Shown: positions 377 through 49,800 of the stretch, in pieces | How the letters are laid out: each line of letters begins with the position of its first letter | Numbering within the stretch: the stretch's first letter is position 1 | Source of the DNA: Candolleomyces eurysporus | Lineage: Eukaryota; Basidiomycota; Agaricomycetes; Agaricales; Psathyrellaceae | Assembly (NCBI GenBank): GCA_027579435.1 | Contig: JANBPK010000706.1 | Location: forward strand, 248,001-312,000 | Direction of reading: 5' to 3' | DNA length: 64,000 bases | Position numbers and translations under genes: made by a program | Notes under the pieces: model-generated | The model's database searches: none | What the model saw: only the letters and a program-made list of their open reading frames with translations | What the model was told of the DNA's origin: nothing

Positions 377-3300
377 CTACAGTCCAAAGTGCACATAAGG
401 CACCCACACCAACGACTCGGGTGTGTTGCCAAGTTTCTTGCGAATGCCATGCGTGATTGCGTGGTGTAATGACTGGCCAGCATGTCGACCGTCGATATCT
501 GGTGCCCCAGCTGCAGCGGAACGAGTCAAAAGGTCGTCGTAAAAGCTCTCTGCGATCTCTGACGCATATTTATCCTTGATAGACCACATCGTCCCCACCA
601 CTCCCCTGTACCCCGCAGCCAACATCCCCGCGGCAAGATGCACGGCTTCTTCCGACAGTTTTTCGTCTCCTGTGCTCGTCTGACACGCCGAAAGGAACGC
701 TATATCGGCGTTGCACATGTTGGCTTGGATAATCTTGGAGAGTTTCAGGCGTCCATCGCGCAGGTGGAAGCCGCTTCTCAGAGGTTCGTCAACATCCTGC
801 TTGGCGTGGCATGCGAGGTGGACGCAGGTGTACTTCTTCATGTTGGACACCCCTGCCTCTATAACGGCTGTACCATCCTTCTCTCCTCCTAGTGTCATGG
901 TTGGAATCCCTCGGCTGTTGAGAAGACTCTTGATGGCTTCGACTTCTGCTTTTGCTCCGGGGATCTCAGTCAGTCCTGGAGCATTGTGTTCACCTATCAG
1001 GAGGACACCCCGCTCCACTGGGGCTTTCGTCGGTGTGCTGGGCTCTGGATTGGGCTTCAAACGTTCCAGAAGGGATGATAAGGTCGGAATATATGAGGAA
1101 ACAGCGTAATCGGAGATACTGACGGCGTCTGGACGACCGTAGACTCCGGCTGCGTGGAGGGGAAGAAACGAAAGGGATCCGGTCGGGCACCACCATATTC
1201 TTTGTTCTGGCACCCTGTCCTTCGAGGCCTGCCGAAAGGGTTTAGCATCCATTCGGGGAGACAAACTGCCCCTGACTCACTGTGAGAGATAGTTTGTTCA
1301 CGATATGTTTGACAATCCGGGTCCAGAGCTGCTTCAGCACGTATTCCAGCATGCTCGCACTTCCTCCGACCCGCTGGACTGGGCGTATTCCTCTGCCATC
1401 GGGGTCGCTCCCAAGGATCTCCTCTCCTTCTACCGAGCTGTCGTACCCCCGCATTCGAACACCCTCTGCGACGAGACTATGATGCAAGTTGGTTCGCCAT
1501 TGTTCCACCATGTCGTAGGTCAGCTCTTGAAGATGCAAATGCATGGGTTTCATAGCGCCCGATTGAAGAACAAGAGCGTCACATCTCGTTTGATGGATGA
1601 CGATAAAGACTATGGCGCAATTCGCAGGGATACGATCGAACCACTCTTCGACTAGCGGTGGCTTCAGGAAGTCTTCAAAGCCTTCTATAAGTCGAACTTC
1701 GGTAAGAACCTCCTCCCATTCCTGAGCGAGGTTAACGTGGGATACCACGTCGTCTTGCAACAGGATCTTCTGCTCCATATAAATCTCCGCGTCTAAGCTT
1801 GATCCTGTGGAGTCCAACGGTCCAGATTCCGACTCTGGACTAGGAGATGTATGAACGGTGCGCGAGCCCATCTGTTCTAGCAAAGGAGACAGATGGGTCA
1901 GTCGATCTGCTAGCCCGGGGTTCACACTTCGGAGAGAATCCACGGGTGTTCGAAGGCTGTTAAGCTGAGTCCAGACGAGGCAACGACCCTGCTCGAGCCA
2001 TTCCATCGCCAACTCCGCAGCTCCAAGTTCGATCGCTACCGCCGCAGCTTCCAATGTGATGTTCGAAATCGAGGAGAGGGCTGAGTGGCGGCTTTGTATC
2101 GTTTGATCAAGTCCGCTAATAACGGATACGAGTTGTATGCAAACTTTGTACGCGGATAGACACCCTCCTGTGTCGAACCTCCTTGTTAATTTGGCCAGCC
2201 TTTTCGCTATATTGATACGATTCCATGGGGATAGCGCTGGGTCGAGAGCAACATCTGTCCAGTTCAAGGCTGCTTCCTGCCCATAATGAATATCCTTCGA
2301 AAGGCGATAACGCGTCGCCTGCGTGTTCGCGAGGTTCGTGCGGAGGCTCAAGCGTATAAAGGTTTGTGCGGAAGTTTCTGGAACGCTATCAAGTCCACGT
2401 TGGAGAACGGCGATTGCTTCATCCAGCTGGGTAATTTCGCCTGTGCGGCGGAACAATGTGTGTAAGGACGTTCCTAAGTTGTTTAAGTATTGGTAGAGAG
2501 ACGGCGACGTGTCGGACTCCGCGAGGAGGGATACGGCTTTGCGACGAAAAGATATGGCTTCCTCGATATCTTCGAGGCTGCTTGATACCTTGAACCTCTC
2601 GTGGAACACGGTACCTAGAGCGTCGGTGATATACGAGAGCAATGAGGGATTCTTAACAACTGCTTCTAAGGCAGTCGCAGTTGTCAACCTAGCAACGGCC
2701 TTATCGAAATCGGGAAGTTGGCGAGTAAGTTCGGCCAGAGTCCTGAGGGACAGTCCCAGGTTCAACATGCGAGCTGGGAGGTGGGGATGGTCGGACAGCG
2801 CATGCGTGATAGCTGCTTCCTGGTAATTGATGGCTTCCTCCAAGTCCAACGTATCTTTTGTGCGCCCAAAGCGAGAAAGAAATGAGTTGCCCAGGTTTGC
2901 CAGGTGGGACGGGTAGTCTGCGCGATCGTTTGGTGTTATTTGAACAACCTTTTGTTGGATGCTGATCGCTTCTTGTATGTCGGAGAGATTGCCTTCACGC
3001 TCAAATCGAAGTCGGAGGGAGATGCCAAGATTGTTGAGTGGAATGGCCAAGCGAGCTTTTTGGCGAAGTGTCACGGGACTGGAGCCGGAGACGGGAAGCT
3101 GAGTAGGAGAAAGAAGGTTGACTGATTCTCTGAGGTACTCTATGGAGAGTAATATGTCGACAGGATCGTGGCCATATCGGAATCGGACTTGATGTGCCCC
3201 TCCAAGAGCGAGATATTGACTTGAACGGTCCAAATGATGGGAATTGGGTGTTAAAGCCCTCGCTTTGCCCAAGTAATCCACGGCTTGGTCGATATCTTCA

Positions 3301-5865
3301 ATGCTTTTCTTCAACTCGGCTCTGCTCATCAGAGCGTTGGCAAAGTTCGTTAGCCTCGTAGGAAGTTGGGGATCTGTTGGAGAGCTCATGGCTACCGCTC
3401 TGGTATGGTTTGCTACCGCACCGTCGATGTCGGATGCCAAGCCGGATCGTTGATACTTCAGGTGAAGCGCATTGGCAAGCCCCCCAACCCAGCTCGGCAG
3501 ATCTGGTGATCGAGGCCGTTTATCCTCCTCTTCATCGATCATCCGTCTTCGCATCGCAATAACGCGGTCAATACATCCCAGGTCTCCGATTCCCTCGAAT
3601 CGTCGTTGTAGTGCAATGCACAGGTTGTGCAACATGAAAGGTAAATTACGATCGAGCTCCGGTGTGAGTGCAACGGCCTTTTCATGGGCCGCTATGGCTT
3701 CCTGGAGGTCCACCATCTGCCTGGTCAACTGATAGCGGTGTTGAAGAGCAACTCCAAAATACATAAGGCGCGCAGGAAGCACAAATCGATCTTCTTCGTC
3801 AAGGTCATTTGGTTGGGTGAGCCTGACACACTGCAGGGAAATTGACACGGCTTCTTCAACATCTTCAATTCTGGCTAGCACTTCGCATTTACTATGCAGG
3901 GCTAGGATGAGCTCGTACAACCGCTTGGCACGGGTAGATTTCTCGCCCTCGGGAGTTAAAGAAACTCCTTCTCTCGCTCGTGAGATCGCTTCTTCAACGT
4001 GTTCTAGCTGTTGGGAGCACCCAAATTGAAGTCGCAGTGATTGCGACAAGCTTGAGAGGTACTGAGGGCTGTTGGGGGAATATTGAACTGCTCTTCGATG
4101 TGAGAGAACAGCCTGATCAAGGTCGGCAGCATTTCGGGAGTATTTATAACGATGACCGAGCCATCGGCCAAGTGTGTCGAGATGGTTAGATATAGAGGAT
4201 TTGTCAGTGGAAAGCATGGTAAGGGTAACTACATCTTGTTGCACCCGGATGGCCTCAGATATGTGTTGCTGTGTCTGAGTCTTAAGGAATCGACGGTTGC
4301 ACAAGGAGGATAGAGACGTGAGTCTGGAAAGGACCCTTGAGCTGGCGGGAGCGGTCAGTTGGACGGAACGTCGTTGGATAGAAATTGCCTCCTCAAGATC
4401 TTCGAGATTCGACGTTTCCTGGAATTTGATGTGGAAGGCATATGCGAGGGAATGCAGTGCGGCGGAAAGATCGCTGGAATGCTCTTTTTTCCCTTCTGCT
4501 TCTTCTGCCATATCAACTGCCATGTGTTTAAAATGGATTGCCTGTTGAATATCGTCCATGGAATGACTATGTTCGAATTTCCGCTGATACACCAACCCTA
4601 GCTTCGACACCCGATAGCGGTGCTCCGGGTGCTCAGGCTTGCAGAGTTGTACAGCTTGATGTTGGTGCGCGATCGCCTCATCGAGGTCCTCAGGATTTTT
4701 TCCTGCATCAAAGCGTCGCAGGAGAGCGCTTCCAAGATTAGTGAGAAGCGTAGGGAGGTTACCGTGGGGCGCCGGTGTCAAGGCCACGGCTTCCCTCAAA
4801 CGGCCCACCGCCTCTTGGAGATCCTTGGTGTCGTGGTCGATATCAAAGCGGCGCTGGAGGGCGTTCGAAAGATTGTTCAACCTTGCCGGTAGGTTGGCTG
4901 CGTCCGTGCCAGGAGTAGCATCGACAGCCTTTTGGAGAGCTTCTATGGACCCATCGAGATCCGACGCGTCGCTGCTCACTCGGAAACACTGATCGAAAAA
5001 ATCTCCAAGCTTGCTGAATCGTTCAGCAAGCTCGGCCTGATAAGTGCCGGAGAGATCAGCGGTGTCCTTTTTCTCCATCGCCATGTCGACGCTCCTCTCG
5101 ATGCAAAAGATAGCGTGTCGAAGATCGCCAACTTCCTTGCTGTGTATGAAGCGGCGGGAGAATAATGTACCCAAGTTTACATATCTCTGTTGATGGACCT
5201 GATCTTCAAGATCGGAGCCAAATATTTCTTGCTGCTCGAGTTCGATGGCTTTATCAATCTCGAGCAGTACAGGGGAGCTCCGATCCTCTTTAGTGTCGGA
5301 ATTGACATCGCCCGTTAGAGTTAAGGTGATATTTAGTTGTAGAGTTGTAGATCCTAGAATTGATGTTGCTGGCGAGAGCCGTTCTTTGATGACTACAATC
5401 GTTGATTAGTGATAGACTGTGACTGGAGGATCCACAGTTGAACGGCGGTACCGCATACTTACATTTCGTTGGAGTCCCACCTCGCCCGGACAGCTGATTT
5501 TCAGCAATCGTCACGAAACCGAGTTCTCCGTAACTTCGGCAGGAAGCTACGATCCTCAACTCCGTACTATTGAGCGCTCTGTTACCGGCCCCGATTCAGC
5601 GCTGACTGGCGATAAACACTACGTATGATTTAGCAGACACACACATCGGAGGGTTTCGTCCCAAGTTCCAATTCTCCCTGGACTCTCTTTGCAGTGGGAC
5701 ACGGCGTTCGTCACCTTCTTGGCAAAGGTATATATTGAGAGTGGTGGTCTCTGAGAGGGGATTGCATTCACCACTCTCAGAAAGGTCGTGTTCGACAGAT
5801 ATCTCTACAAGCAGTGACAAGACAGGTGTCAGATTTGTGATACAACAAAACTCCGTACTGAACAT
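377..5865 (-). CDS. C2-like / TPR-repeat / CHAT-domain protease-like protein
   Basis: Four exons read on the minus strand: 5865-5645, 5578-5463, 5392-1281 and 1228-377, total 5301 nt, 1766 aa. Introns of 66, 70 and 52 nt have GT-AG ends and keep the frame; the last has a CTAAAC branch site. The first about 150 residues look like a divergent C2 domain, the middle about 1300 residues are degenerate tetratricopeptide repeats (recurring ALTP..NLP..L.NL.....RF...G...D...AI), and the end is a CHAT domain. CHAT is a caspase/separase-like cysteine peptidase fold. The expected dyad is visible as HLACHA (His near 1624) and LSACQT (Cys near 1665), so it is probably catalytically competent. TPR-CHAT proteins are expanded in mushrooms, with substrate unknown. 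The start at 5865 is the first ATG of the exon; a short upstream exon cannot be excluded. An in-frame TGA at 5596-5598 falls inside the first intron. Confidence 0.85.
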
Positions 5866-15876: not shown

Positions 15877-17326
15877 CTATGCGTCGTTATTATCTGCGAC
15901 GAGCCTCTTGTACTTATACAAAATTACACGTCCAGTTAATCATTTATTCGCCTTGACCTTGAACTCCGGCACTAGTCGTACAATCCAGAGCTCCTTGCCA
16001 ATGAGCTCGACAGTAATCGGCTGGTCTCTTCGTCACATTTCCAAGTCTAATAAAAGTTGTAGACAGTGTGTACCACTTTCTGCGCTCGTTCCCACCGGTC
16101 CACAGCTGTGCAGTCTCGCAAATTGTTGCTTAGTTCGCATGTTTCCTCCGCTTCGCCACAAGCCATCCAGTGAGCCTTGTACCACACAGCAGAAGTGAAT
16201 GTGAAGTGGAGGAAGCGAAGAGAGGGTAGAGCATAGTAGGGGGGCCTGTCGCACAATAACCCGTTCGGAGGGTTAAACGACGCAGAAAACGAGAGGCTCC
16301 AATCAATTCGCGACTCTGTAGCAGGTGGAATTCGACTTTCGTTTCAGAAAAGTCTTCGTACCAGTCTTACCCAATAATTATCCCTCGCTATAAACCGCGG
16401 TATGGGGTTGATTTTAAACAGTTTTAATTTTGTTTGGTTTTTAGGGTGGTTGGGGTGTAAGCATCCGAGGCATTATGCATTATGCTCCGCTCTCAGTTCT
16501 GGCGTCTGCTTCGTATATACAAGAGGTATAAATTTCGGGTACATCGGCTCATTGTAGCCTCCAGATGGTTGTAGCGTAAATAATACTTGTGACTCAGAAG
16601 GGCCTGGCCGTTGTGATTCTTGCATTCTAATCAAACTGGTCAGCACTCTTGGATCTCTCTCTCTAGTGTTTCTATTCAATTCTGCCACTCGGAAAAGGAG
16701 GTAGTTTGAATCACATTCTCCGGAATTGTATCAATTCCATGCGCCGTCGGATGGAGCGGAATCTTAGCGGCCCATGATGACCATAGACCAATCAGTTATC
16801 GGTCTCGAAGCTCCCCAGCTCCTGCTTTTAGTTGGTATCCGTAATCAGACAAATTGCCTTAAGCAACAACTCCGTAACCATGAAGCACGGGTGTACCTAG
16901 CTTTGGCTCTCAGGCTATACTCTTTTGATATCAGAAGAATCGTTAATAGCACCGCTCACCAAGATGAGTGTCAAGGTAGGGAGTGACCGTAGCGTGTCTG
17001 CCAGACTCAAGGACTCACCGAAACCCGAGAGTTGGTAAGACAGTGTATACACCGCACTCGGTCAAAGGGCACAGCAAAGCCACTGCAATATAGTTGATAG
17101 AAGAGGCAAAGGGTTTGACGGGTAGCTTTAAACGGCAGAACGAAAACTGCGACTTCATACCTATTTATGAACATTGACTGTTGCGATCAACCCGCGATGC
17201 CCACAATTTGATTTTGAGTTCTCCGAAGTACCCTCAATGGTAACTAGATACTGGGCGTGAAACCCCTGCTGCTAGTGAAGACTGGTCAATAGTTTCATAA
17301 TTACACCTTGCATAATCGACCAGAGG
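15877..17326. other. intergenic; left edge of segmental duplication
   Basis: No gene is supported between the BTB gene and the first precursor gene. From 16789 on the sequence is shared with 19991 onward, so the last 0.5 kb is the upstream flank carried along in the tandem duplication. Confidence 0.5.
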
Positions 17327-17334
17327 TATAAATA
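17327..17334 (+). promoter_or_regulatory. TATA box of precursor A
   Basis: TATAAATA lies 158 bp before the ATG, within AGAGGTATAAATACCTAAA. Its exact counterpart lies at the same distance before paralogue B. Confidence 0.6.
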
Positions 17335-17491
17335 CCTAAAGGTTTTCAATGGAAAGTCCACAGAACTGATCTTTTCACCCCTTCAACTACTACGCAACTG
17401 CGCCTACTTCATTCCTCATTCAAACTATTCTCAGCGTAGATCGCTATTAAAATAAAACTACGACACACTCAGAACTCGCAATAAATTCAAG

Positions 17492-18620
17492 ATGGTCCAA
17501 CTTAGCACTGCTGCTACCGTCACTGTCGCTGTCCTCATCGCTGCGTCCGCATACGCCGAACCAGGCACCAACGTCGAAGGCACTAGCATCGATATCTCTG
17601 CGTAAGCGACATCATTTCCAGAAAAACTCTAGTCACGTACTCACCACAGAGCTGGTCATCGAAATAGACGATCAGAGCACGGTCACGCTCACGGTGCACA
17701 CCACCACCATGCAACTCCAAGTCGACGAGATCTTGACGACGTCGAGGAACTCGACGCCCGCTTCTTCAGGAAAATCGCCCGAAAGATCTTCGGACGCGAC
17801 CTGAGCTCCGTCGAAACCGAACTGGAGGCCCGGGACCCGACCTGGCACAATTGGATCGGCAACGGGAACATGCGTCGAGAGCTCCAGGACTCGGAGGAGC
17901 TCGAAGCCCGGTTCATAAAGCGAATTGCTCGAAAGATCTTTGGACGCGAGCTTGACAAGCTCGAGGCCAGGGACTTCGAAGATGGAGGGGAGCTCGAAGC
18001 CCGGTTCATCAGGCGGATCACGCGAAAGTTATTTGGACGCGAGTTCGATGAGCTCAACGAGATCAAGGCTAGGGGCTTTGAAGATGGAGAGGGGCTCGAA
18101 GCCCGCCACGAGCACAACCACCACCACCAGCACGAACACGTCAAACGTGCACTGGAGGAGATGTCGGACGAAGAGCTCCAAGCCCGCGCCCCGATTTTCA
18201 GGCGCATCGCGCGAAAGATCTTTGGACGCGAGTTCGACGAGCTTAACGAGGTCGAGGCTAGGGAGGTTCAAGATGCTGCGGAGCTCCAAGCCCGCCACGA
18301 GCACAGCCATCGCCGCCTGCACGAGCACGTCAAACGTGCATTGGAGGAGATGTCGGACGAAGAGCTCCAAGCCCGTGCCCCGATTTTCAGGCGAATTGCC
18401 CGAAAGATCTTTGGACGAGACTTGAGCGACGAAGAGCTCGAGGGACGCGCCCCACTTTTCTTCCTCGGAAAGGTCGCTAAGAAAATTCTCGGCCGTGAGG
18501 TCGAGGATAGGTACGTTTGCTTTTCGTTCTTGATTTACGAAATGAGTTGCTGACATTCGACTCGTGTTGGTTTGGAATTCATCTAGCGTTGCTGCCAGGT
18601 CCCTCGAGGAGCTCGATTAA
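17492..18620 (+). CDS. secreted repetitive precursor A (putative Kex2-processed cationic peptides)
   Basis: Exons 17492-17601, 17650-18510 and 18587-18620 give 334 aa. Residues 1-22 are a signal peptide ending in ASAYA. A His-rich pro-region (about 37-74) contains NRRS and SRRD dibasic sites. Six cationic amphipathic segments follow, at about 75-86, 125-136, 156-167, 217-230, 280-293 and 304-319. They are variants of FFRKIARKIFGR, APIFRRIARKIFGR and a divergent last one (FFLGKVAKKILGR). Each is preceded by an acidic linker ending in EL(E/D/Q)AR or similar and followed by (E/D)(L/F). Some linkers hold HEH...HEHVKR, a dibasic Kex2-type site. The whole resembles precursors cleaved in the Golgi into several small peptides. 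An alternative is an unprocessed protein of alternating acidic and basic helices. I do not recognise the family; function is not assigned. Confidence 0.8.
18101..18478 (+). repeat. 189-bp internal tandem repeat in precursor A
   Basis: The segment starting GCCCGCCACGAGCAC at 18101 recurs at 18290, exactly 189 bp (63 codons) later. It spans a His-rich linker, the VKR site, an acidic linker and one cationic segment. Paralogue B has a single such unit, so gene A gained a repeat. Confidence 0.75.
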
Positions 18621-19510
18621 GTGGCAGGTGGTTAGAAAGAGTTTGCACGGAGTGTTGTGTACGTAGCTGGACATTATGGTCGAATTTTACGTTTCTTGCT
18701 GTCTTTATCTTTACCTGCCAAGGATTGTAATTAAAGTTACTTGAGCTAGTAATTGCCGAGTGGGGGTGATGATTTAGATCACATCGGCAACCTCGGCGCC
18801 CAGCTAATAACAAAAGAAACTCAAAAAAAAGGGTCCCCTTGGTGGTCTTCAGAGCGCTCATTGTGACGCACTTTGTGCTCTTGTTCTGTCTACGAAGCAT
18901 ACAAAGTCTACAGAGCTTGTTAAGACTGCGATCCACCAAATCGGTGTTCGTCTCGCACCTGGAACAACAGTTTGGCGCCTGTCTCACGCAAGCTGAATAA
19001 TCTGAGAACAGGTGTTAGTGCCATTTAGTACGAGAGGCTTTGGCATTCCGGCGTTGAGCTTGGAGGTTTTGGGAACCAAATCTATTTGAAGTTGCGGTAT
19101 CTCGGAGCGTTAGCTGTCAATATAGATCATGATGTTGCTCCACGAGGGTGGCAAGGGTGAAATATAGGGAAGCGGATACCTCCCAGACTTTTAGCTCACG
19201 AGTCCTGCTTACTATCCCTACGTGCCTTTCAATTTGAAATCTTCCTAGCCGAAATTCGATCACCGCCTCCGCCGAGAGGCCATAGCCTACCTGTCTACTA
19301 TATCGCGGTTTTGCAAGGATCATTTCGAGTGCTAGGACAAGGAGCAACGCAGCACATATACATTTCAACACAGGATACAAAGTACAACACCAACTTGGGT
19401 TTTCTGATTTATGTACATCCGCAAAGAGTCAGAGGCCATCACACTAAAACACTAGTAGTCCATCGTTTCGACAAGTCTTCAAGAGGCGACATGCCGAGCG
19501 CCATCTTAAA
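18621..19510. other. intergenic within duplication copy 1
   Basis: This spacer between convergent genes is shared with 21629-22465 and carries no supported open frame. It holds the 3' flanks of precursor A and of the truncated inhibitor. Confidence 0.55.
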
Positions 19511-19988
19511 TCAGTTGGTATTGACAGGGACGAACTGCCAAGTAGGAACACGGTAGTGGAGAGACCGGATGACCGGGTAATTCTTCGTAACGAGCTGCAG
19601 AGCAATGTAGTTAGCACAAGGGAACACAAAGCAAAGTTAGACCAAACGAAATGCAAAAGACTCACATGGCCGCCCTCGACACCAACGGCAGCGAGGGCAC
19701 CGACAAGCTTAGTCAGGACCGTAATACTGCAAACCCAAAAAAGAAAATAAAACATCGTTTGTTAGCCTACCATCCCCTCAAGCAAGAAGAAACGGGGCGT
19801 GCTACGTACGTATCGGTAGCCTTGTTGGGATCTCCTCCCCCATCCGAAGCCTCGGGGTCCAGCTCGTCAGCCTGGATGGCCTTGCTGAGGGGACGGCCCC
19901 AGCCAGCGCGGACGGGTCCGATACGATGTAGGATCGAGTGGGACCTGAAGCCGGGCGTGAGGATCACCCATTGGTCCTTGTTGTCGAG
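19511..19988 (-). pseudogene. truncated mycocypin-like gene
   Basis: The 3' half of the inhibitor gene at 22466-23297 is present (stop at 19511; exons 3 and 4 intact with normal splice sites). Exon 1 and the start of exon 2 are missing because the duplication junction cuts the gene. Exon 2 also lacks 117 bp (39 codons, in frame) relative to the complete copy. The deletion lies between two CCT triplets (22798-22800 and 22915-22917 in the complete copy). No promoter or start codon remains, so it is a pseudogene. Confidence 0.8.
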
Positions 19989-20514
19989 GCTAATCAGTTA
20001 TCGGTCTCGAAGCTCCCCAGCTCCTGCTTTTAGTTGGTATCCGTAATCAGACAAATTGCTTGAAGCACCAACTCCGTAACCATGGAGCACAGGTGTACGT
20101 AGCTCTGGTTCTGTACTCTTTTGATACCAGAAGAATGGTCAAAAGCACCGATCACAAAGATGAGTGTCAAGGTAGACTCAAGGACTCACAGAAACCCGAG
20201 AATTGGTAAGACAGTGTATACGCCGCACTCAATCAAACGGCACAGCAAAGCCACTGCAATATGGTTGATAGAAGATGCAAAGGGCTTGACGGGTAGCTTT
20301 GAATGGCAGAACGAAACTGCGACTTCATACATTGTAATCACCTATCTATGAACGTTGACTGTTGCGATCAACCCGCTCCCGCGATGCCCAAAGTTTGATA
20401 GTTGAGTTCTCCGAAGTATCCTTAATGGTAACTAGATACTGTGCGTGAAACCCCTGCTGCTAGTGAAGAGTGCTCCATAGTTTCATAATTAGACCTTGCA
20501 TAATTGTCCAGAGG

Positions 20515-20522
20515 TATAAATA
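20515..20522 (+). promoter_or_regulatory. TATA box of precursor B
   Basis: TATAAATA lies 157 bp upstream of the ATG, in the same context as for paralogue A. Confidence 0.6.
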
Positions 20523-20678
20523 CCTAAACGTTTTCAATGGAGAGTCGACAGAACCGATCTTTGCACCCTTCAACTACTACTCAACCGCGCCTACCTCATT
20601 CTTCATTCAAACTATCCTCAGCGTAGATCGCTATTGAGATATAACTACTTCACACTCACAACTCACAAGAAATTCAAG

Positions 20679-21628
20679 ATGGTCCAACTCACCACTGCTG
20701 CTACCGTCACTGTCGCTGTCCTCCTCGCTGCGTCCGCATACGCCGAACCAGCCGCCAAGATCGAGGGCACTGGCATCGATACCTCTGCGTAAGCCAGATT
20801 ATTTCCNAAAAAAACGATAGTCACGTACTCACCACAGAACTGGTCATCGAAATAGACGATCCAAGCACGGTCACGCCCACGGTGCAAAACACCACCATCA
20901 TGCGACTCCAAGCCGACGAGATCTTGACGACGTCGAGGAACTCGACGCCCGCTTCTTCAGGAAAATCGCCCGAAAGATCTTCGGACGCGACCTAAGCTCC
21001 CTCGAGACCGAACTGGAGGCGCGGGACCCGACCTGGCACAATTGGGTCGGCAACGGGAACATGCGCCGAGAGCTCCAGGACCCGGAGGAGCTCGAAGCCC
21101 GGTTCATCAGGCGAATCACTCGCAAGATCTTTGGACGCGAGCTCGACGAGCTCGACGCCAGGGACTTTGAAGATGGGGAGGAGCTCGAAGCCCGCCACGA
21201 GCACGGCCACCACCACCTGCACGAGCACGTCAAACGTGCACTGGAAGAGATGTCGGACGAAGAGCTCCAAGCACGTGCCCCCTTTTTCAGGCGAATTGCT
21301 CGAAAGATCTTTGGACGAGACTTGGACTACGAAGAGCTCGAGGCACGCCTACGCCCCGGGCAAGTGAAGAGATCCCTCCCTGGACATTATATTACGAAGC
21401 TTAAAGGCCGTGGGCTCGAGCAGGACTTGGAGGCTCGTGGCCTTATGCGTCCAGGGAGGCGCCCTGTTGGGTGGAGAGGAGCGCTTCCTAGGCCGAGGGA
21501 GCTTGAGGTCGAGGATAGGTACGTTTGCTTTTCATTCTTGATTTACGAAATGAGCTGCTGACATTCGACTCGGTTTGGTTTGGAATTCATCTAGCGTTGC
21601 TGCCAGGTCCCTCGAAGAGCTTGATTGA
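20679..21628 (+). CDS. secreted repetitive precursor B (paralogue of A)
   Basis: Exons 20679-20788, 20838-21518 and 21595-21628 give 274 aa; an N at 20807 lies in the first intron. The signal peptide (MVQLTTAATVTVAVLLAASA) and His-rich pro-region match A almost exactly. Three cationic segments remain, at about 76-87, 126-137 and 184-197 (FFRKIARKIFGR, FIRRITRKIFGR, APFFRRIARKIFGR), with the same acidic linkers and HVKR and MRR sites. After about residue 208 the sequence departs from A: an Arg/Pro/Gly-rich tail (PGRRPVGWRG, PRPREL) with further KR and RR sites replaces the last repeats. The C terminus is again SVAARSLEELD. A and B lie in tandem and in the same orientation. Confidence 0.78.
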
Positions 21629-22465
21629 GTGACAAGTGATTAGGACGAGTTTTGGACATTGTGTTGTTTATGTAGCTAGACATCGTGCTTGAATTTCAAG
21701 TCGTTGCCGTTTTTATTTTTGCCTGCCGCTCGGCGCCCAGGTCATAACAAAAGAAACTCGAAAAAAGGGTCCCCTTGGTGGTCTTCAGAGCGCTCACTGT
21801 GACTCACTCGGTGCTCTTCTTGGATCTACGAAGCATACGAAATCTGCAGAGCGTTTTAAGACTGCGATCCACCAAATCTGTGTTCGTCTCGCACCTGGAA
21901 CAACAGTTTGGCGCTTGTCTCACGGGAGCTATAATCAGACAACAGGTGTTAGTGCCTTTTCGTACGAGAGGCTTTGGCATTCTGACGTTGAGTTTGGGGA
22001 TTTGGGGACCAAATCTATTTGAAATTGAGGTATCTCGGAACGTTAGCTGTCAATGTAGATGATGATGTTGCTCCATGCGGGTGTCCAGGGTGAAAAATGG
22101 GGAAATGGATAACTCCCAGATTTTCAGCTCACGAGTCCTGCTTACTATCCCTACGTGCCGCAGCCTTGATGACGACTCAGGCGCGCCCTTCAGTTTGAAT
22201 TTGCCCAAGTCGGAATCGGATTACCGCCTCGAGGTCATAGCCTACCTGCCGACTAGATCACGGTGTTGCAAGAGCCATTTCGAGCGCTAGGATAAGGAGC
22301 AACGCAGCACATATACATTTCAACACAGGATACAAAGTACAACACCAACGTGGGTTTTCTGATTTATGTACATCCGCAAAGAGTCAGAAGCCATCACACT
22401 AAAACACTAGTAGTCCATCGTTTCCACAAGTCTTCGAGAGGCGACACGTTGGGCGCCATCTTGAA
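21629..22465. other. intergenic within duplication copy 2
   Basis: Counterpart of 18621-19510, with scattered substitutions and small indels. No gene is supported. Confidence 0.55.
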
Positions 22466-23297
22466 TTAGTTGGTATTGACAGGGACGAACTGCCAAGTAG
22501 GGATACGGTAGTGGAGAGACCCGATGACCGGGTAATTCTTCGTAACGAGCTGCAGAATAGTATCGTTAGCACGAGCGAGAACAAAGCAAAATNAAAACGC
22601 AAAAAAAACTCACATGGTTGCCATCGACGCCAACGGCGGCGATAGCACCGACAAGCTTAGTCGGGACCGTAATACTGCAAACCCAAAAAAGAAAGGAAAA
22701 ACATCGTTCGTTAGCCTACCGTCCCCTCAAGCAAGAAAGACCGTGTGTGATACGTACGTATAGGTAGCCTTGTTAGGATCTCCTCCCCCATCCGAAGCCT
22801 GGGAGATAACCCAGTTCTTGATGGTAGTCGTGAACAGAACCGCCAAATCCGGGTGCGGTAGGAGACCCTCCTCCTCCGCCTCCTTATCAGCCAAGACCTC
22901 GGCCTCGGCAGCGGCCTCGGGGTCCAGCTCGTCAGCCTGGATGGCCTTGCGGAGGGGGCGGCCCCAGCCAGCACGGACGGGCCCGATACGATGGAGGATC
23001 GAGTGGGACCTGAAGCCGGGCGTGAGGATCACCCACTGGTCCTTGTTGTCGAGGGCGGGGGTCACTTCCCACTATCAAAACGTGCGTGTTAGTATTTATG
23101 ACAGAAAGCGAGAAGAGAAGGACGGTGTAGCGTAAATAAGTACGTACAGTGTGGACGCCCTTGAAAGGAGGAAAGAGAGGCAGAGCCTCGATGGGCTTGT
23201 TGATGTCCTCACCGACAGCATGAACACCACCGACGAACGGCGGGGTGATATGAGCGGGGACGTAGCGGATCTGGTAGAGGCCGGGCTTGAGAGTCAT
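22466..23297 (-). CDS. mycocypin-like (clitocypin family) cysteine-protease inhibitor
   Basis: Exons on the minus strand, 23297-23148, 23071-22758, 22674-22614 and 22549-22466, give 202 aa. There is no signal peptide, as in known mycocypins, which are cytosolic. The pattern fits a beta-trefoil inhibitor: KPGLYQIRYVP at the N terminus, GEDINKP, an aromatic WEV at the exon 2 start, then DQWVI, NWVI, TYTI and a closing IPTWQFVP. Mycocypins (MEROPS I48) inhibit papain-like proteases and legumain; the proline-rich loop before WEV is the region I compare with clitocypin. An Ala/Glu-rich stretch (about 95-115) makes this longer than the typical about 150 aa. It converges on precursor B. Family assignment comes from remembered motif similarity and is not certain. 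Confidence 0.65.
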
Positions 23298-29700: not shown

Positions 29701-29791
29701 CGGTGCTCTCGTTCCCCCGGCTCCTAAACCCACGAAGAGTCTCTTGCGACGACCCCATCGAGGATTTGGATCTTTAGGACAGGTATNAAAA
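29701..29791 (+). promoter_or_regulatory. conserved core promoter, inhibitor gene 1
   Basis: CGGTGCTC, CCCCCGGCTCC, ATCGAGGATTTGGATCTT and GGTAT(N)AAAAAGG occur in order, about 100 bp before the ATG. The N at 29787 interrupts the TATA box and is probably an assembly mark. Confidence 0.65.
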
Positions 29792-29887
29792 AGGCGTGCT
29801 CTTCGTTCAAGTAAATCAGTTCACCAGCTCTTCAGTTACCACTCATCTATTTTCTGCTCTTCTACTACCTTACCAATCTCAGCCAAT

Positions 29888-30693
29888 ATGCCTCTCAAGC
29901 CTGGTCATTACCGGATCCTCTACGTCCCCTCTGGCCTTCCCCCGAGTGACTATGCTGTGTCTGGGCAGATCGAGAAGCCTCTCCCGGTCAGTCCGCTCGA
30001 GGCCAACTCCAGGGTGCGTACGCCACTCCTTTCTGTGTTCCACCCTCTCTCCGTGTCTTGTTCCCACTCGGGAAATAATAAGCACTAACGTACACGTTCA
30101 ACAGTGGGAGCTCCTAGTTGCCCCCGGAAACATTAAGGACCAGTGGACCATCCGCAAGGAAGTCGTAATAGAGCGCACACCTGACTACATTGGGTGGGGT
30201 CGTCCCTCGCGTAAGGGCGTTCATAGCGACGACCGCAATCCCTTCGATTTCAATCCGGAGATCCGCGCTGACAAGGAGGCGGAGAGGGAGGGTCTCATTC
30301 AGTGGCCTGATCAGCCCGTCATTTATACCACCCTAACTCAGAATTGGCAAATCACCGAGACTCCGGATGGTGGAGGAAATCCTGAGAAGACTTATAAGTG
30401 CGTATTAATTGCTGATAGCTTGGGCTTTTCAGAGCTTAAGGTCGGGGGGGCTGAAAAACGAATTTTGATCTGGTTTTGCAGCATCAAGATCCCGACTGAC
30501 ATCGTCGGTGTCATCTCCGCCGTTACTATAGAGAATAACCATGTCAGTCTTTTTCATTTGTTGTTCCCTGCTCTCAGTTTACTGACGATTGATTTTCTTG
30601 ACTCTTCAGCTCGTTACAAAGAATTATCCGGCCCACCCTGTGCCTGGCTTCCCTCACAAGCTCCCCGCTTGGCGGTTCATCCCCATCGTTTGA
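29888..30693 (+). CDS. mycocypin-like inhibitor 1 (divergent)
   Basis: Exons 29888-30013, 30105-30397, 30482-30542 and 30610-30693 give 187 aa. It shares KPGHYRILYVP, WELL, DQWTI, NWQIT, TYNIKIP, LVTKNYP and a final PAWRFIP with the other members, and has identical intron positions. It is the most divergent complete copy: the first exon is eight codons shorter and lacks the GEDINKP and Pro-rich TPPF loop, which in clitocypin-like proteins lies near the protease-binding loops. It may therefore have lost or changed its target. Function otherwise as for the copy at 22466. Confidence 0.65.
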
Positions 30694-32741
30694 TTCGATG
30701 ACGGCGCTCACCAAGCGGCCTCTTAAAGACTCGTGGAAACGACGGACTGCTAGTTTTGTGTTATTAATTCCCTTGGACTCATTGCGAATGTGTATAAACT
30801 CGAAAACCCGTATATTGTGTCGAAGCTGTACTGTAGTGTGTTGGAATGTGAAGGTGTACTCTGTGACCGCAGAATTTGCCCACTCAGTATCTCGTCCTAC
30901 TAGTTGGGGTTCGGGCAAACGTGGCTGATTGAAGAGTCCAAATCCCGGCTTAGCTCAGTGGCCAGTCAGTGCCGTTCACATACCGTGGTTCTCTGATATC
31001 AGATTTCCAAATTTATTTTACAGGTGAATGCATACATCGAGCAGGCAAAAAATTCAGTAAAAGCTCTCCCTTTAGTTAAAATACAACCGGCAGGAAACCA
31101 ATGTAAGAGCAAAACACTGAACCACATTCAGACCTTCAGGTCGATGACAACGCCCTTTGAGGTCCTCCTGCTCCGTTGCTATATCATCCCTCAGACTCTC
31201 ATTATTATACCCCCCCCTCTGTTCTCTTCTTCCCCGCCTCCACGTCAACTCTATTTCTGCGGTTTGATTGTTATGTGTACATGTATATACTCTACGGCTC
31301 ATTTCAACATCTGTCTTACTCTACCTACAGCCTGTCTTCCAATTCTTTCGTTTCCCTGCTATGATATCGTTGATCTGGCGTAGTAATGTCTTCACGCCCG
31401 CCCGCTTCTCTACGCTCTACGGCCATGGTCGCGCATACTTTTTACCCAATGAACCAATCAATCGCGCGAAGCTGTTTCCCTTTTCACTTCATGCACACGT
31501 GTGCACTGTGTTTTTCATGTATTGTATTGCGCTTGATAGGCTCTTTTTTTCCCCTTCCATTGACACGGAGTTTTCCCTTTTTTTTTTCGGTTCTGTTCGA
31601 TANTTTGGAAGGACTTGATTGAGGTGCTCGTACGATTCAAGAATCTTTTTCTACCTGTAGTCGCTAATGTATGAGCGACGCCGACACTGCCCCTTGTTGC
31701 TGCTGAGCCTCGGATGAGATGATCAGGGATCCCGAGCGGGTTGGATTGAGGATCTTATATAGTTCGGATCAAGGAGGGTCGTCGCTCGCTCGCTCGCTGC
31801 AAGAAATCCCGGAGCTCAGCATGACAGCCTATCATCAGCGCTTTGATGTTTGATACGGGCTTGAGATGCAAACACTGATGGGTCCGACTCGGATTAATAT
31901 TGAACTTTTTCTGATCCTTTCCTTCTCCTCTCATCATCGTGAACGCGAAATGTACCCTCGAGAGTCGGACGCATGTGATTTTCCGTTTCGATAACGCCTG
32001 CTGCTCTCATCTTCATGTAAGTATGATTATACCGAGTCCATATCGCGCTGAAAGGAAGTACTTCCAGGTTTATTGTGCGTTCGCTATCTTTGGTACGCCG
32101 TAGTCCTTCGTTTGTGGCTCTGACGGCAATGACTACGTTACTCTTGTTCTCTACTCTCCGCTATGGCCACCCGCCCCAACGGCTCTCTGTGACAAGGCCT
32201 CTTCTACGACCTGGTGGTTTCCGATGACTCTCGGGTCACCACTCAGTCGTCTGCGGTGACACAAGCGACCAGGCCAGTTCAATTATATGACAGCATCGTG
32301 TGGGGGCAATATTCCGATGAATCGGTGCTTGGACAAAACTCTGGATTGCGAGGGGGTCGGCGTGACACGGATGTGCTCAACGTAGTCTCCTGCGGTCCTT
32401 TGGAGCGTTCTGGGTTTACGATTTATTGGGCTTTCGGCGTCGGGAAGCACCCGGAGTGCTTTTGTGCAACCTTGACTTGCTGGTGCCCGAACGTCCGCTT
32501 TTTTGGTCTCCGTCTTTGTGCATTAGGGTAGAAGGCTTTGGCGATCCCTCGTTAAAGTCGTTCGCTGTTAGCAAGGTGGCGCTTCACAGAATCGAAAGTG
32601 GACCTGAATTTCCAATTATGGAGACACTTGCGGCCTGAACCTGAAGGCGCACGCAATAATGGAGTCTCATGATACCATTGTTGAACTCTATATTTGCTGC
32701 TCCTCTTGATCCTCAGCTACGTTAATCTAGAGTAGGGAGTG

Positions 32742-32829
32742 CGGTACTCTTTCTCCCCCGGCTCCTAACCCCACAAAGAGTCTCTTGCGACTACATCGAG
32801 GATTTGGATCTTTAGGACAGGTATAAAAA
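32742..32829 (+). promoter_or_regulatory. conserved core promoter, inhibitor gene 2
   Basis: CGGTACTC, CCCCCGGCTCC, ATCGAGGATTTGGATCTT and GGTATAAAAAGG, with TATAAAAA 105 bp before the ATG. Confidence 0.7.
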
Positions 32830-32926
32830 GGCGTACTCTTTTGTTCAAGATAATCAGTTCAACCAGCTCTTCAGTTACCACTTGTCTATTCTCTGTTCTT
32901 CTATTACCTTTGCAATCTCAACCAAT

Positions 32927-33763
32927 ATGCCTCTCAAACCTGGTCGTTACCTGATTCGCTACGTCCCTCCTGGCCTTACCCCGCCGTTTGAGGGTGGTGT
33001 CTATGCTGTGGGTGAGGTCATCAATAAGCCTGTCCTGGCTGTGCCCGACACCCCTTTTTTCCCGGGCGTCCGCACTGTATGTACGCTATTCCTCTCTCTC
33101 TGTTCCGCCCACTCTCCGTTTTCTGTTCCTAGTCAAGAAATAATAAGAACTAACGTACACGTCCAACAGTGGGAAGTCGCCCATGCTCCCGAAGGCAAGG
33201 ACCAATACACCATCGTCACGCCGGAGTTCAAGTCCCCCTCGATTGTTATCGGACCTGTCCTTGCTGGGTGGGGTCATCCCCCGCGTAAGGACGTTGACAC
33301 TGAGGGACTTGATCCTGCCGCCATTGCCGAGGCCGAGATCAAGGCCGATAAGGAGGCGGAGAAAGAGGGTATCCTTCAGTGGCCTAATGAGCCCGTCCTC
33401 TTTACCACCACAACCCAGAATTGGGAGATCACCGAGACTACGGACGGTGGAGGAGATCCTAAGAAGACTACTTATCAGTGCGTATCAATTGCCGATAGCT
33501 TGGGCTTTTCCGAGCTTGAAGTCGGAGGGCTGACGAACGAACTCCGATCTGGTTTTGCAGCATCAAGATCCCGACTGAGGTCGGTGGTGTCATCTCCGCC
33601 GTTGATGTCGAGAATGGCCATGTAAGTCTTTCGCGTTTGGCCTTTTCTGCTGTCTGTTTTACTGAAGCTTGATTTCTTGACTCTACAGCTCGTTACAAAG
33701 AACTACCCGATTGTCTCTACCCTCTATTACCAGCTCCCCACTTGGCAGTTCATCCCTAACTGA
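32927..33763 (+). CDS. mycocypin-like inhibitor 2
   Basis: Exons 32927-33076, 33170-33477, 33561-33621 and 33689-33763 give 197 aa. It is very close to inhibitor 4 (41688-42523). Shared features are KPGRYLIRYVPPG, GGVYAVGEVINKP, DTPFFPGVRTV, WEVAHAPEGKDQYTI, an acidic helix-like insert (ADKEAEKEG), NWEIT, TYHIKIP, LVTKNYP and LPTWQFIPN. The combination of a Pro-rich loop, WEV and QYTI is what suggests the clitocypin family (papain-like protease inhibition). No signal peptide is present. Exons are intact and contain no N, so this is the cleanest copy. Confidence 0.72.
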
Positions 33764-35893: not shown

Positions 35894-35983
35894 CGGTGCT
35901 CTTGTTCCCCCGGCTCCTTACCCCACAAAGAGTTCCTTGCGACAACTACACCGAGGATCTTGATCTTTAGAATAGGTATAAAA
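35894..35983 (+). promoter_or_regulatory. conserved core promoter, inhibitor gene 3
   Basis: CGGTGCTC, CCCCCGGCTCC, ACCGAGGATCTTGATCTT and GGTATAAAAGAA, with the TATA box 104 bp before the ATG. Confidence 0.68.
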
Positions 35984-36080
35984 GAACGTACGCTTTGGTA
36001 CAAGTAAATCAGCCCAACCAGCTCTTCAGTTACTACTCATCTTTTCTTTACACTTCTACTGCCAATCTTAACCAACCAAC

Positions 36081-36927
36081 ATGCCTCTCAAACCCGGTCT
36101 CTACCAGATCCGCTACGTCCCCCTTCATGTCACCCCACCGTTTGACGGTGGTCTCACTGCTGTGGGTGAGGATATCAACAAGCCTGTCGCGGCTTTGCCT
36201 GTCCTCACGGTGCCCCCTTACACCGGCGTCCGCGATGTACGTACAACACTATCCCATCCTTCTCATCATTTCGCCCTCCCTATTTGTCTATTTTCTGTCA
36301 GCATTAATACTGACACATGTTCACCTAGTGGGAAGTCACTGCTGTCCCCGATNAAAAAAAACCAATATGTTATCGCCACGAAGGACTTCAAGTCTCCTTC
36401 GACCGGTGTCGGAATCATCCGCGCTGGGTGGGGCCGTGAGCCGCGTAAACCTGTTGATATTGAGGGACTTGACCCCGCTGGGGCTGCCAAGGCGCGGCTC
36501 ANGGGCTGACATTGAGGCAGAGGAGGANGGGTATTCTTCCCTACCCCGGTACCGCCGTCCCGTTCACTACTGAGATCGTGAATTGGATCATTGAGGAGGC
36601 GAGTGACGGTGGAGGAGATCCTAAGAAGGTTACCTATAGGTGCGTATTAATCCCTCATTGCTTGGGCTTTCTAGCTTGAGGGGACGTTGGGCTAACGTTC
36701 AATGTTTTTGGTTCTCAGGATTATAGCCCCAACAGTGATCCTCGACGCTATTCCCGCAGTTAGTGTCCACAACAACATTGTGAGTCTTGCCGTTTGGTTT
36801 CCTCTTCTCTCCTTTCACTGACGAATTAATTTCTTGACTTTAGCTTGTTGTAGAGAACTACCCAAAGATCTCGATCGTTGACTACCAGATCCCCACTTGG
36901 CAGTTCGTCCCGGTCCATCCCAACTGA
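36081..36927 (+). CDS. mycocypin-like inhibitor 3
   Basis: Exons 36081-36236, 36329-36639, 36719-36779 and 36844-36927 give 202 aa when three Ns in exon 2 (36353, 36501, 36528) are ignored; exon 2 is then 308 nt, exactly as in copies 2 and 4. Motifs are KPGLYQIRYVP, GEDINKP, WEVTAVP, NQYVI, NWIIEEASDGGGDP and IPTWQFVP. Its tail (ending PVHPN) and its exon 4 length resemble the copy at 22466 more than its array neighbours, so the array mixes two subtypes. Confidence 0.68.
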
Positions 36928-41606: not shown

Positions 41607-41687
41607 GCGGATTCCTTTCTTCAGGTAATCGGCCCAACCAACTCATCTATTCTCTGCTCTTCTACTACCTTGACAATATCAACCAAT

Positions 41688-42523
41688 ATGCCCCTCAAGC
41701 CCGGTCGTTACCAGATCCGCTATGTNCCCCCCTGGTCTTACCCCGCCGTTTGCCGGTGGTGTCTATGCTGTGGGTGAGGACATCAATAAGCCTGTCCAGG
41801 CTTTGCCCAACACCCCTCCTTTCTTGGGCGTCCGCACTGTACGTACGCTATTCCTCTCTCTATTCCACCCACTCTCCGCGTCTCGTTCCTGGTCAGTAAA
41901 AATAAGGACTAACGTACACATCCAACAGTGGGAAGTCGCCCATGCCCCCGAAGGCAAGGAGCAATACACCATCGTCACGCCGGGCTTCGAGTCCCCCTCG
42001 ATCGGTATCGGACCTGTCCTTGCTGGGTGGGGTCGTCCCCCCCGTAAGGACGTTGACACCGAGGGACTTGATCCCGGGGCCATCGCCAAGGCCGAGATTA
42101 AGGCCGACAAGGAGGCGGAGAAGGAGGGTATCCTTCAGTGGCCTAATCAGCCCGTCCTCTTTACCACCACAATTCAGAATTGGCAAATCACTGAGACTAC
42201 GGACGGTGGAGGAGATCCCAAGAAGACTACTTACAAGTGCGTATTAGTTGCCGATAGCTTGGACTTTTCCGAGCTTGAGGGCAGAGGGCTGACGAACGAA
42301 TTTTGATTTGGTTTTGAAGCATCAAAATTCCGACTGAGATCGGCGCTGTCGTCTCCGCCGTTGATGTCGAGAATGGCCATGTAAGTCTTTTGCGTTTGGT
42401 CTTCTATGCTCTCTGTTTTACTGACAATTGAATTTCTTGACTCTTCAGCTTGTTACAAAGAACTACCCGGTCCTGACTGGCCTCTATTACAAGCTCCCCA
42501 CTTGGCAGTTCATCCCCAATTGA
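41688..42523 (+). CDS. mycocypin-like inhibitor 4
   Basis: Exons 41688-41838 (one N at 41726 ignored), 41929-42236, 42320-42380 and 42449-42523 give 197 aa. It is nearly the same as inhibitor 2: KPGRYQIRYVPPG, GGVYAVGEDINKP, NTPPFLGVRTV, WEVAHAPEGKEQYTI, ADKEAEKEG, NWQIT, LPTWQFIPN. The NTPPF-x(n)-WEV-x(n)-QYTI spacing is the closest to what I recall of clitocypin. It lies tail-to-tail with the membrane protein gene ending at 43004, which is probably the ancestral position of the family. Confidence 0.72.
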
Positions 42524-46864: not shown

Positions 46865-49800
46865 ATGCTCGAATCCTTTGACCTGCAGACGGAGCTCTCA
46901 GCATGTGCTCAACCAGACACCTACGATGTGCCCCATGAAGACGATTTCGCCAACAAAGAAACAAACGAGCTGTTGGAAGGTAGGCCGTTTCACCATACAG
47001 TGTCCAGGTATTAACGCGCGAAACCGTGTCTAGCTGCCGTCGAGGCTGTAGCGGAAAACAGCGACTCAATACGGGACGAAGAAATCCTTGATGTATATCG
47101 ATATCTGCTGAAGAATGCAGCTACAACGCCGGGTGTCGTGATGGGGAAGCTTCTAGACTCAATATCGTCCGGCTTGAAGGCAGAGTTGGAGGCAACGTTT
47201 CGGGATGTGGAGTCTGGGGAGCAGGAGGTCTACATGTCTCATAAGCTACCGTTGGAGCTGTACGCATTCCTGTTGGCGTGGTTTGCCAAAGCGTCGGAGA
47301 AGGTGAAGAGTGGAGATGACGATGGTCCAGTGGCCCCGAAGCCCAAACGCGGTCGTGGTGGAAGGACAGCCTCGAGGAACGTCGGAGCCAAACGAACGGA
47401 GACCTGGTCATGGCAGAGTCAAATCCCCGATACTCTCAACCTCATCCTGAAAGTCCTCAAATTGCAGACCCAGCGGATATGGACCAACACGCCAGACAAG
47501 AACAGCTTCTTGACCGCCATCACTCGACCGGCCTATGCTGTCAGCGAGACCCCGCAGTTCATGAAGTCTGCTGAAATCCGCAATGCCGTTTATGAGGTGC
47601 TCTGCATCGCCGTCAAATCCCATGGACAGGCCATGGCCCTCACAATCCATGTCACCCAGTCCCTCCAATTCATGGGCGAGCACATGGCTGAACCCATGGC
47701 GGAGTGCCTGTACAGGCTTTCGACCAAGTACGACCACTCTCAAACCGGGGACGAGGTGCTGCGAGAGATAGCAGGAAGGACGTTTACTGGTCAGGACACC
47801 AAGACCCCTAGGGCTTTCGCCACTTTCCTCGTCACCTATGCGGAGCTTTACCCCCGAGCTGCCCACAGACAGCTCGCGCTTTTGATTAACCAACAGGACT
47901 CAGATGTAAGTTTTGACCTTTCTTTCATTCTCTTCGCTCACGAGCATGTCTCAGGCCTACCCGTTGCGGCAAGCAATCATCGAAATCCTCGGCTGCCTCA
48001 TCCGGGAATTATCACAGTCTTTAGAGGACGAAGGCGACGACAAGAAGAAGACGCAGAACGAGATCGTTGGCATGTTCGAACAGATTATCGACAGAATTCT
48101 CGACAACAATTCCTACGTTCGAACCAAGATCTTCGCCGTCCTTGCTCGTATTTGCGACATTCCCAACGTCAAGTTCCCCAAACAGCGTCTGAAGATGACG
48201 AGCTTGGCCGTCATGGCCCTCGAGGACAAGTCATCAACAGTCCGGAAATCCGCCCTCTCGTTACTCATCAAGCTTCTCCAGACACATCCTTATGGACATG
48301 CGTATGGAGGGCTGCTCCAGCGCGAGGACTGGACGAAGGATTATGAAGAGGTTCAGAAGCAGCTCCAGAAGGTTGAGTCGCTGGGAGACGCCGTCGCCAA
48401 CGCTGAAGAGGAAACTCAAAACGAAACTCAGGAGGACGAGCAACCAAAGAAAAAGAAAAGGTACGCTTTTCAGACTGATTATCTACGGATTTGTTCTCAG
48501 AATTAGCGACAGAAAGTCAAAGAAGCATAAATCGGATGCGGACATGGACATTGACGGGGAGGACGCTGAAGGCGAGGGCGAAGAGGACGAGGAGGATGAC
48601 GTTGGCGGTGACACCGAGGAAGATGAACCCGACCAAATGTCTGTCGATGAAGATGGAGAAGATGGAGAACGCCGCCCACGCAAGCAGAAACTCCAGCCTC
48701 GCAAGTCTCAGATCAATGTAGAGGCCATCACTCAGGAGCAAGAAGTTCTCGCTCATATGGAGCACAACGACCTCATGAAGATGAAGCTCAGGAAGAAGTA
48801 TTGCAAGGAGGCGATCAATTTCATTCACCAAATGGAAATGGCCATCGAGGTTATTGTGAAGTTACTTGGCTCCAAAAACAAGTTCGAAGTTTTGGAAGCC
48901 ATCGACTTTTTCAAAGCCGCTCACGAGTACAAGATTACGGGTTCTCAGGTCAGATTGCCACTTCCTTCTGTGTCGTCGATGTTTATTCACTGCCACGTAT
49001 AGGAGGGTATCAGGAAGATGTTACACTTGATCTGGACGAAGGACAACAACACGACTACCACCGAGGACGGGAAAGAGCTCAAGGGCATCCGTCAAAAGCT
49101 ATTGGAGTGCTACAAGATTCTTTACTTCGATCCGGTGGAAGACCTCGAGCCACGAGCCCAGATAAGCCGTATCGCCAAGAACCTCATTGAGTACGTACCC
49201 CGGTCTCCCTTTGTTTCTTCGGCATTCTGACTTGTTCACTTAGGCGGACGTACGAAGCCACGTTGGCCGAGCTGACTAGCTTGGAAGAGATGATGCGGAT
49301 TATGATGGAGGAAAACTACATCCATCGCGATATCATCGCCAAGCTATGGCAAATCTACAGTAAGTTCTCAGCGAGCTTTGACGAACGCTGTAGCTGACTT
49401 AAGGTCCAGGTGTCCCTCAAAGGATCCCAGCAGAGCAGCGAAGAGGTAGCATTATCATCCTAGGAATGCTTGGTATTGCGAAACCCCTCGATGTGCTAGA
49501 CCCCCAAATCGATCTGATGCTCAAAGTCGGCTTGGGGAAGCAGGGCAAGGTACTGCTCAGAATTTGGTTTTGCTTCGTGAAGTGTCTAATGGCTTTTCAG
49601 CTCGATCTTACGCTCGCTCGCTACACTTGCGTTGCTCTTCAACGGCTTAATGGCAGTGCAAAGAAAGTCAAAGGTGTGTACGGCCTACGTCTTCGTTGAA
49701 TTTGCCCTCTGACAATGACCTAGGTTCTTTGGAGGACAAAACGAAGCGTTTACCGATGGACCACCCCGTCTTCAAGAAGCTCCTCTCAACCGTTGTGCAC

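Follow-up and report, generated by a model that had tools for sequence, protein, structure and literature searches.

Two tandem genes on the forward strand of a 64,000-nucleotide window (the whole stretch of DNA analysed) from contig C983 of the genome of Candolleomyces eurysporus (Psathyrellaceae, Agaricales; G000, 65.85 Mb) encode predicted secreted proteins in which short cationic segments alternate with acidic spacers. On balance we lean slightly towards reading them as multi-peptide precursors that would be cut after single arginines, freeing cationic amphipathic helices that act on microbial membranes. The genes, here called A and B, are present where the first-pass annotation had placed two secreted repeat precursors (Table 1), and our model of gene B agrees in every letter with C. 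eurysporus protein P0002 at NCBI (H1R20_g2047). The N-terminus is clearly hydrophobic (MVQL...AASAYAEP) and was read as a signal peptide by inspection.

The repeated segments, or cores, of A and B follow the pattern [FI][FI][KR][KR]I[AT]RK[IL]FGR. Six copies had been reported for gene A and three for gene B; the three in B stand, as do five in A, and the sixth is recognisable only in a divergent form. When two paralogues elsewhere in the genome (C and D, described below) are included, the 13 intact canonical cores read F/I-F/I-K/R-K/R-I-A/T-R-K/T-I/L-F/L-G-R, a repeated pattern of two hydrophobic and two basic residues, each with a net charge of +4 except for one D core at +3 (final Arg excluded); the acidic pieces separating the cores in A, B and C carry -2 to -6 on the same basis. 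The initial picture of short cationic amphipathic peptides set among acidic spacers in a secreted repeat precursor is supported. The borders are regular too: all 11 canonical cores of A, B and C are preceded by L-[DE]-A-R or L-Q-A-R-A-P, matching the L-x-A-R linker ending described in the first pass, and end in F-G-R followed by D or E, both borders being single-arginine sites in every case. An AP cap precedes four of these 11 cores (two of five in A, one of three in B and one of three in C) as well as the divergent sixth core of A. Mature A holds 20 copies of the motif [LIVM]x[AG]R and mature B holds 13, where shuffles average 1.2 and 1.1 and none of 2000 reaches these counts; at the DNA level, TTYGGNCGNGA is found eight times in the window, all within A and B (shuffle mean 1.3, with 0 of 100 shuffles reaching eight). 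The spacers also contain His-rich stretches of the HEHxHHHxHEH type (Table 1), with a further run near the N-terminus (HGHAHGAHHHH), for which a role in metal or pH sensing is possible.

In the processing route that we propose, a secretory-pathway protease would cut after single arginines, at L-x-A-R ahead of each core and at F-G-R at its end, and a KEX1-type carboxypeptidase would take off the final arginine. A STE13-type dipeptidyl peptidase could trim the X-Pro start (AP here; DP, EP or NP in relatives), and therefore AP-IFRRIARKIFG and FFRKIARKIFG would become equal in length, the products being 11-residue peptides of the form [FI][FI][KR][KR]I[AT]RK[IL]FG. Until cleavage the acidic spacers would balance the cationic cores; once freed, the peptides, several copies per precursor, would form amphipathic helices, most likely acting on the membranes of other microbes. 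The residue pattern and charge point to helix formation and membrane action, and an antimicrobial role is presumed. The C. eurysporus genome has one match to a dipeptidyl peptidase IV (DPPIV)/STE13-type enzyme and three to the kexin P domain, the latter in agreement with the published number of kex2 genes in Coprinopsis cinerea, which is three (PMC9769878). The Gly-Arg of the F-G-R end might instead be a signal for C-terminal amidation; no match to the amidating monooxygenase PF03712 was found in the genome, but 14 control genomes gave none either.

This architecture resembles that of the fungal Kex2-processed repeat proteins (KEPs; Le Marquer 2019, Umemura 2020, Vogt 2022), which have a signal peptide and three or more repeated short segments amid basic cleavage sites, and some of which carry X-Pro or X-Ala STE13 dipeptides; the repeats number five plus one in A and three in B. 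In KEPs, however, KR, RR or KK flank the repeats, whereas A and B have single arginines at the borders, with LxAR(AP) in front, in a [DE]-L-x-A-R context, and FGR-D/E behind, and of the 20 KR and RR sites that A, B and C contain, none coincides with the edge of a core. The alternation of acidic linkers with cationic cores and the shared C-terminal Leu-Asp also set the family apart. We file it as a putative KEP variant, one that would work like a KEP but lacks the dibasic borders.

The paralogues C (contig C1103, 218 amino acids) and D (contig C102, 295 amino acids) have DNA blocks that match A and B at ~77-91% and extend ~0.9-1.3 kb upstream of the start. The first core of gene D is degenerate (SSRNATRKNFGR), with its flanks retained. 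A second class of basic segment, of the GL(M/I)RPG(R/K)R type, lies 3' of the cores in gene D and in gene B (21439-21498), and several such units are present in P0006 of C. efflorescens. A fifth gene, E, was found with P0014 as query (best E 4.1e-4); P0007 as query gave no match in the C. eurysporus genome. Gene E opens with a signal-type sequence resembling theirs, carries (D/E)PFFRKIFGGIKRVAGSLLGR-type cores in repeat amid acidic linkers and ends in REIDELD. Six of its seven modelled introns fall inside a core, which suggests that its repeats multiplied through duplication of exons, whereas the cores of A and B all lie within exon 2; part of the long last exon of gene E may be an intron left in by the model.

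Genes A and B appear to belong to a wider family of Agaricales proteins, of which they form one branch. The first-pass annotation had proposed a search for relatives of the core and linker, and three protein searches, with ~8000 candidates scored in each, yielded at least 51 proteins that set different cationic cores in this frame; all family counts given here are lower bounds. Six close relatives are Candolleomyces proteins, and the other named members come from C. cinerea, Crassisporium funariophilum (three), Cyclocybe aegerita, Flammula alnicola, Panaeolus (two), Psilocybe cyanescens and Ephemerocybe angulata, all of which we take to be Agaricales; the remainder are mostly metagenome-derived. 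Agaricales thus account for 16 of the 17 species-named proteins, the exception being P0030 of Podospora didyma, presumably an ascomycete. Core types vary among the relatives (SIFGKIFGAVKGIFGR, the type repeated in P0007; (DP)FIGKILGGAKRFLFG in P0014 of C. cinerea; FLGKIFKKVGGFLGFGR; FIGKILGGAKRFLFGR; and SFGSFFRKIRKVV...ASLAIR) and the frame is constant. R-x-P sites number 219 and occur in 50 of the 51 proteins, with Ala at P2 in 162, Leu at P4 in 179, an acidic residue at P5 in 170, and D, E, N, A or S as the x in 201. The boundary [LIVM]x[ASTGV]R followed by [DENAS]P, a motif formulated after this tally had been seen, is present 182 times in 49 of 51 proteins, against a shuffle mean of 1.1 (maximum 4 in 200 shuffles) and none in reversed sequences. 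A C-terminal Leu-Asp is shared by 46 of 51 proteins, and by 28 of the 32 that are left when the set is thinned at 60% identity (chance ~0.8%), a share that may be biased upward because the profile of the third search contained the tail. Among the exceptions, P0001 and P0003 have ends that resemble read-through of the last intron, and P0030, P0008 and P0037 may be convergent. Thirty of the 51 have segregated charge (p<=0.01).

The suggestion that the core may be new is upheld, in that protein A has no Pfam match above cut-off (eight lie below the cut-offs) and the 11 distinct core strings are absent from the published text searched, where strings printed in figures or supplements alone would escape notice; it undersold the scope, given the wider family. 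The Pfam scan of protein A and the first protein search used a longer, 334-residue version as query, with six residues outside the final model. A 30-residue core stretch of P0016 gave 0 matches in the PDB at E 10. Pfam matches of 10 aligned members fell in four unrelated families, one member each (best E 6.4e-5), and were taken as chance, as were the eight weak matches of protein A and the occasional precomputed Pfam label among the relatives. No such family is named in the titles and abstract openings covered for mushroom antimicrobial peptides, nor is the A/B family described in the covered text of KEP papers since 2022.

Several observations weigh against membrane-active peptides released by this route. 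Amphipathicity is modest: 3.9-6.1% of composition-matched shuffles reach the moment of each of 8 cores, and 16 of the 51 family proteins fall in the amphipathicity top tenth, for windows picked by charge rather than centred on cores. Charge is not segregated at 0.01 in 21 of the 51, P0007 among them, and gene B carries basic pieces outside its cores, after the last one. Eight of the 11 cores of A-C hold a KR or RR that a standard kexin could cut. In C. cinerea, the KEP peptides tested had no antibacterial activity, six kep knockouts had no phenotype, and KEP peptides persisted in every kex knockout (PMC9769878). The ratio of nonsynonymous to synonymous change (dN/dS, omega) is equivocal. In the cores it is 0.22 for A/B, 0.15 for A/C and 0.08 for B/C, values indicating that the cores are under purifying pressure; the linkers, at 0.44, 0.16 and 0.43, are constrained too, and core constraint is therefore not clearly the stronger. 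Pairs with D are looser (0.42-0.60 in cores, 0.31-0.61 in linkers), and when all six pairs are pooled the corresponding ratio of proportions, pN/pS, is 0.37 in cores and 0.44 in linkers, a small gap. These values come from non-independent pairs and from an alignment in which the extra repeats of A are set imperfectly against B-D; they support selection on the protein and, weakly, stronger selection on the cores.

The same processing could instead free signals, aimed at a mate, at a partner organism or back at the producing fungus, an alternative that we regard as rather unlikely. The knockouts just mentioned, of six other KEP genes, showed no growth phenotype, which together with the lack of antibacterial effect would suit signals, and the architecture recalls the ascomycete alpha-pheromone precursors, in which a repeated peptide is cut at basic residues with X-Pro or X-Ala dipeptides beside and after the cut (PMC6339444, PMC9769878). 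Those precursors, however, have KR sites and pheromone cores, and in A-C the dipeptides are optional (four of 11 canonical cores). Against signals, the cores vary widely across species and variants coexist within one precursor, yet the cationic and hydrophobic character is retained; within A-D, core positions 3-4 alternate among RK, KR and RR. Receptor ligands are usually conserved more exactly.

That A and B are conventional KEPs, in which kexin cuts at KR and RR and the real products are other fragments, such as ALEEMSDEELQARAPIFRR or the His-rich pieces, strikes us as improbable. KR and RR are indeed present in the linkers, as first described, and many C. cinerea KEPs carry sites of this kind (PMC9769878), 31 putative KEPs having been published for that species; but eight of the sites in A-C are within cores (four in A, two in B). 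Strict cutting there would split eight of the 11 cores, free none exactly and leave unequal fragments, and P0007 and P0008 lack any dibasic site, and the Kex2 processing at KR and RR is not supported in the form that had been proposed. The absence of KR and RR from core edges, the eight sites inside cores and these two relatives therefore favour single-arginine cutting. Of 55 sequences (the 51 proteins plus A-D, B and P0002 being identical), 39 pass our re-implementation of the Le Marquer prefilter and 16 would be missed; A-C pass but would be cut inside their cores. That screen cut at KR and RR, then KK (PMC6339444), and the Umemura screen used KR, KK, RK or RR (PMC7329392); in one and the same place in the cores RK takes turns with KR and RR, and only the latter screen counts it as a site. 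Three C. cinerea KEPs in Pichia gave several products apparently cut after single arginines (Vogt 2022, PMC9769878); a search on Kex2 single-arginine specificity listed unrelated papers only.

It is very doubtful that the protein remains uncut as a charge-alternating, His-rich extracellular polyampholyte with a wall, metal or surface role. The HEHxHHHxHEH stretches and the conservation of the linkers would suit such a protein, but single-arginine boundaries and X-Pro caps are maintained while the cores change, and AlphaFold predicted no fold for the gene B protein (mean predicted local distance difference test, pLDDT, 36.6) or for P0016 (41.8) from shallow alignments of 5 and 10 sequences. The models contain low-confidence helices only, covering the cores and some linkers; the lack of a fold would be expected for a precursor, but for shallow alignments too. 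A dikaritin-type RiPP precursor, with cores cyclised by UstYa (DUF3328) enzymes, is barely credible: there are a signal peptide, repeats and at least 16 UstYa matches in the genome, but none of the matches listed is on C983, C1103, C102 or C230, the canonical cores have no Tyr, and proteins A and B have no Cys.

Linear cationic alpha-helical antimicrobial peptides of animals, such as cecropin and magainin, are short, cationic and amphipathic, like the A and B cores, and some animal multi-copy precursors also have acidic spacers; the likeness is one of character, with no sequence relationship shown. The Ece1 precursor of Candida albicans differs in holding a single toxin together with other peptides instead of a series of near-identical cores. 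It is comparable, in a likeness drawn without sequence comparison, as one precursor yielding several peptides by kexin and then KEX1, one of them, candidalysin, membrane-damaging, but unlike in A and B this peptide is bordered by KR sites (PMC5784256).

More tentatively, and here we would sooner doubt than assert, mushrooms may possess a large and rapidly diversifying set of genuine antimicrobial peptides of the linear cationic helical type, made in multiple copies and matured at single arginines in the order [DE]-L-x-A-R, X-P, core, G-R, with the Leu-Asp tail as a sorting or processing mark, and missed or mis-cut by dibasic KEP screens. The relatives with other cores in other mushrooms suggest that peptides of antimicrobial or signalling type have a source here that has not been described before. 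Should the cores indeed be freed, mushrooms would hold many ribosomal linear cationic helical peptides, and a processing code made up of the single Arg in L-x-A-R, the X-Pro cap and the Leu-Asp tail would be one that both genome-wide dibasic screens left unused. The cores would then be ready sequences for synthesis and testing, and the kex knockouts published for C. cinerea could answer which protease cuts the single arginines.

Table 1. Features of genes A and B (positions in the window) and of gene E.
Feature	Position	Strand	Remarks
Gene A	17492-18620	+	exons 17492-17601, 17668-18510, 18587-18620; 328-residue precursor; intron-1 acceptor from comparison of four paralogues and NCBI model P0002
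Gene A signal peptide	17492..17557	+	inspection only
Core A1	17762..17797	+	FFRKIARKIFGR
Core A2	17912..17947	+	FIKRIARKIFGR
Core A3	18005..18040	+	FIRRITRKLFGR
Gene A His-rich acidic spacer	18107..18187	+	HEHNHHHQHEHVKR-ALEEMSDEELQAR
Core A4	18188..18229	+	AP-IFRRIARKIFGR; AP is the X-Pro cap
Gene A His-rich acidic spacer, second copy	18296..18376	+
Core A5	18377..18418	+	AP-IFRRIARKIFGR
Core A6, divergent	18449..18496	+	(APLFFLGKVAKKILGR): AP-LFFLGKVAKKILGR
Gene A last exon	18587..18620	+	34 bases; C-terminal tail ...VAARSLEELD
Gene B	20679-21628	+	exons 20679-20788, 20856-21518, 21595-21628; 268 residues
Gene B signal peptide	20679..20744	+	inspection only
Core B1	20953..20988	+	FFRKIARKIFGR
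Core B2	21103..21138	+	FIRRITRKIFGR
Gene B His-rich acidic spacer	21196..21276	+
Core B3	21277..21318	+	AP-FFRRIARKIFGR
Gene B last exon	21595..21628	+	34 bases; C-terminal tail ...VAARSLEELD
Gene E	C230, L037 (G000:C230:8500-14500), reverse-complement 2076-4011	reverse	splice model by scoring

An alternative intron-1 acceptor at 17649/20837 was dropped, as that AG is absent in paralogue C and P0002 splices at a later AATAG acceptor. Gap-free matches of 86-95% across the upstream, intron and downstream blocks mark A and B as a tandem duplication. By eye, the duplication that carries them seems to run from ~16787 into the next gene (window 16787-23050), with a truncated copy of the downstream gene ahead of gene B, near 19440-19989, and a junction near 19990 that repeats the sequence at 16787.

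Elsewhere in the window, a CHAT-domain open reading frame (ORF; PF12770) at 380-1276 (-) and a condensin subunit 1 N-terminal ORF (PF12922) at 47015-48343 (+) are ordinary neighbours. A group of ORFs related by eye lies at 22932-23297 (-) and at 29778-30701, 32816-33625, 35971-36573 and 41674-42306 (+), several of them starting with M(P/T)LKPG(L/R)Y(Q/L)IRYVP-type sequence. We presume that these may be mycocypin-like protease inhibitors; one hand-joined member has a sub-threshold Pfam match only, to peptidase inhibitor I66 (E 0.021).

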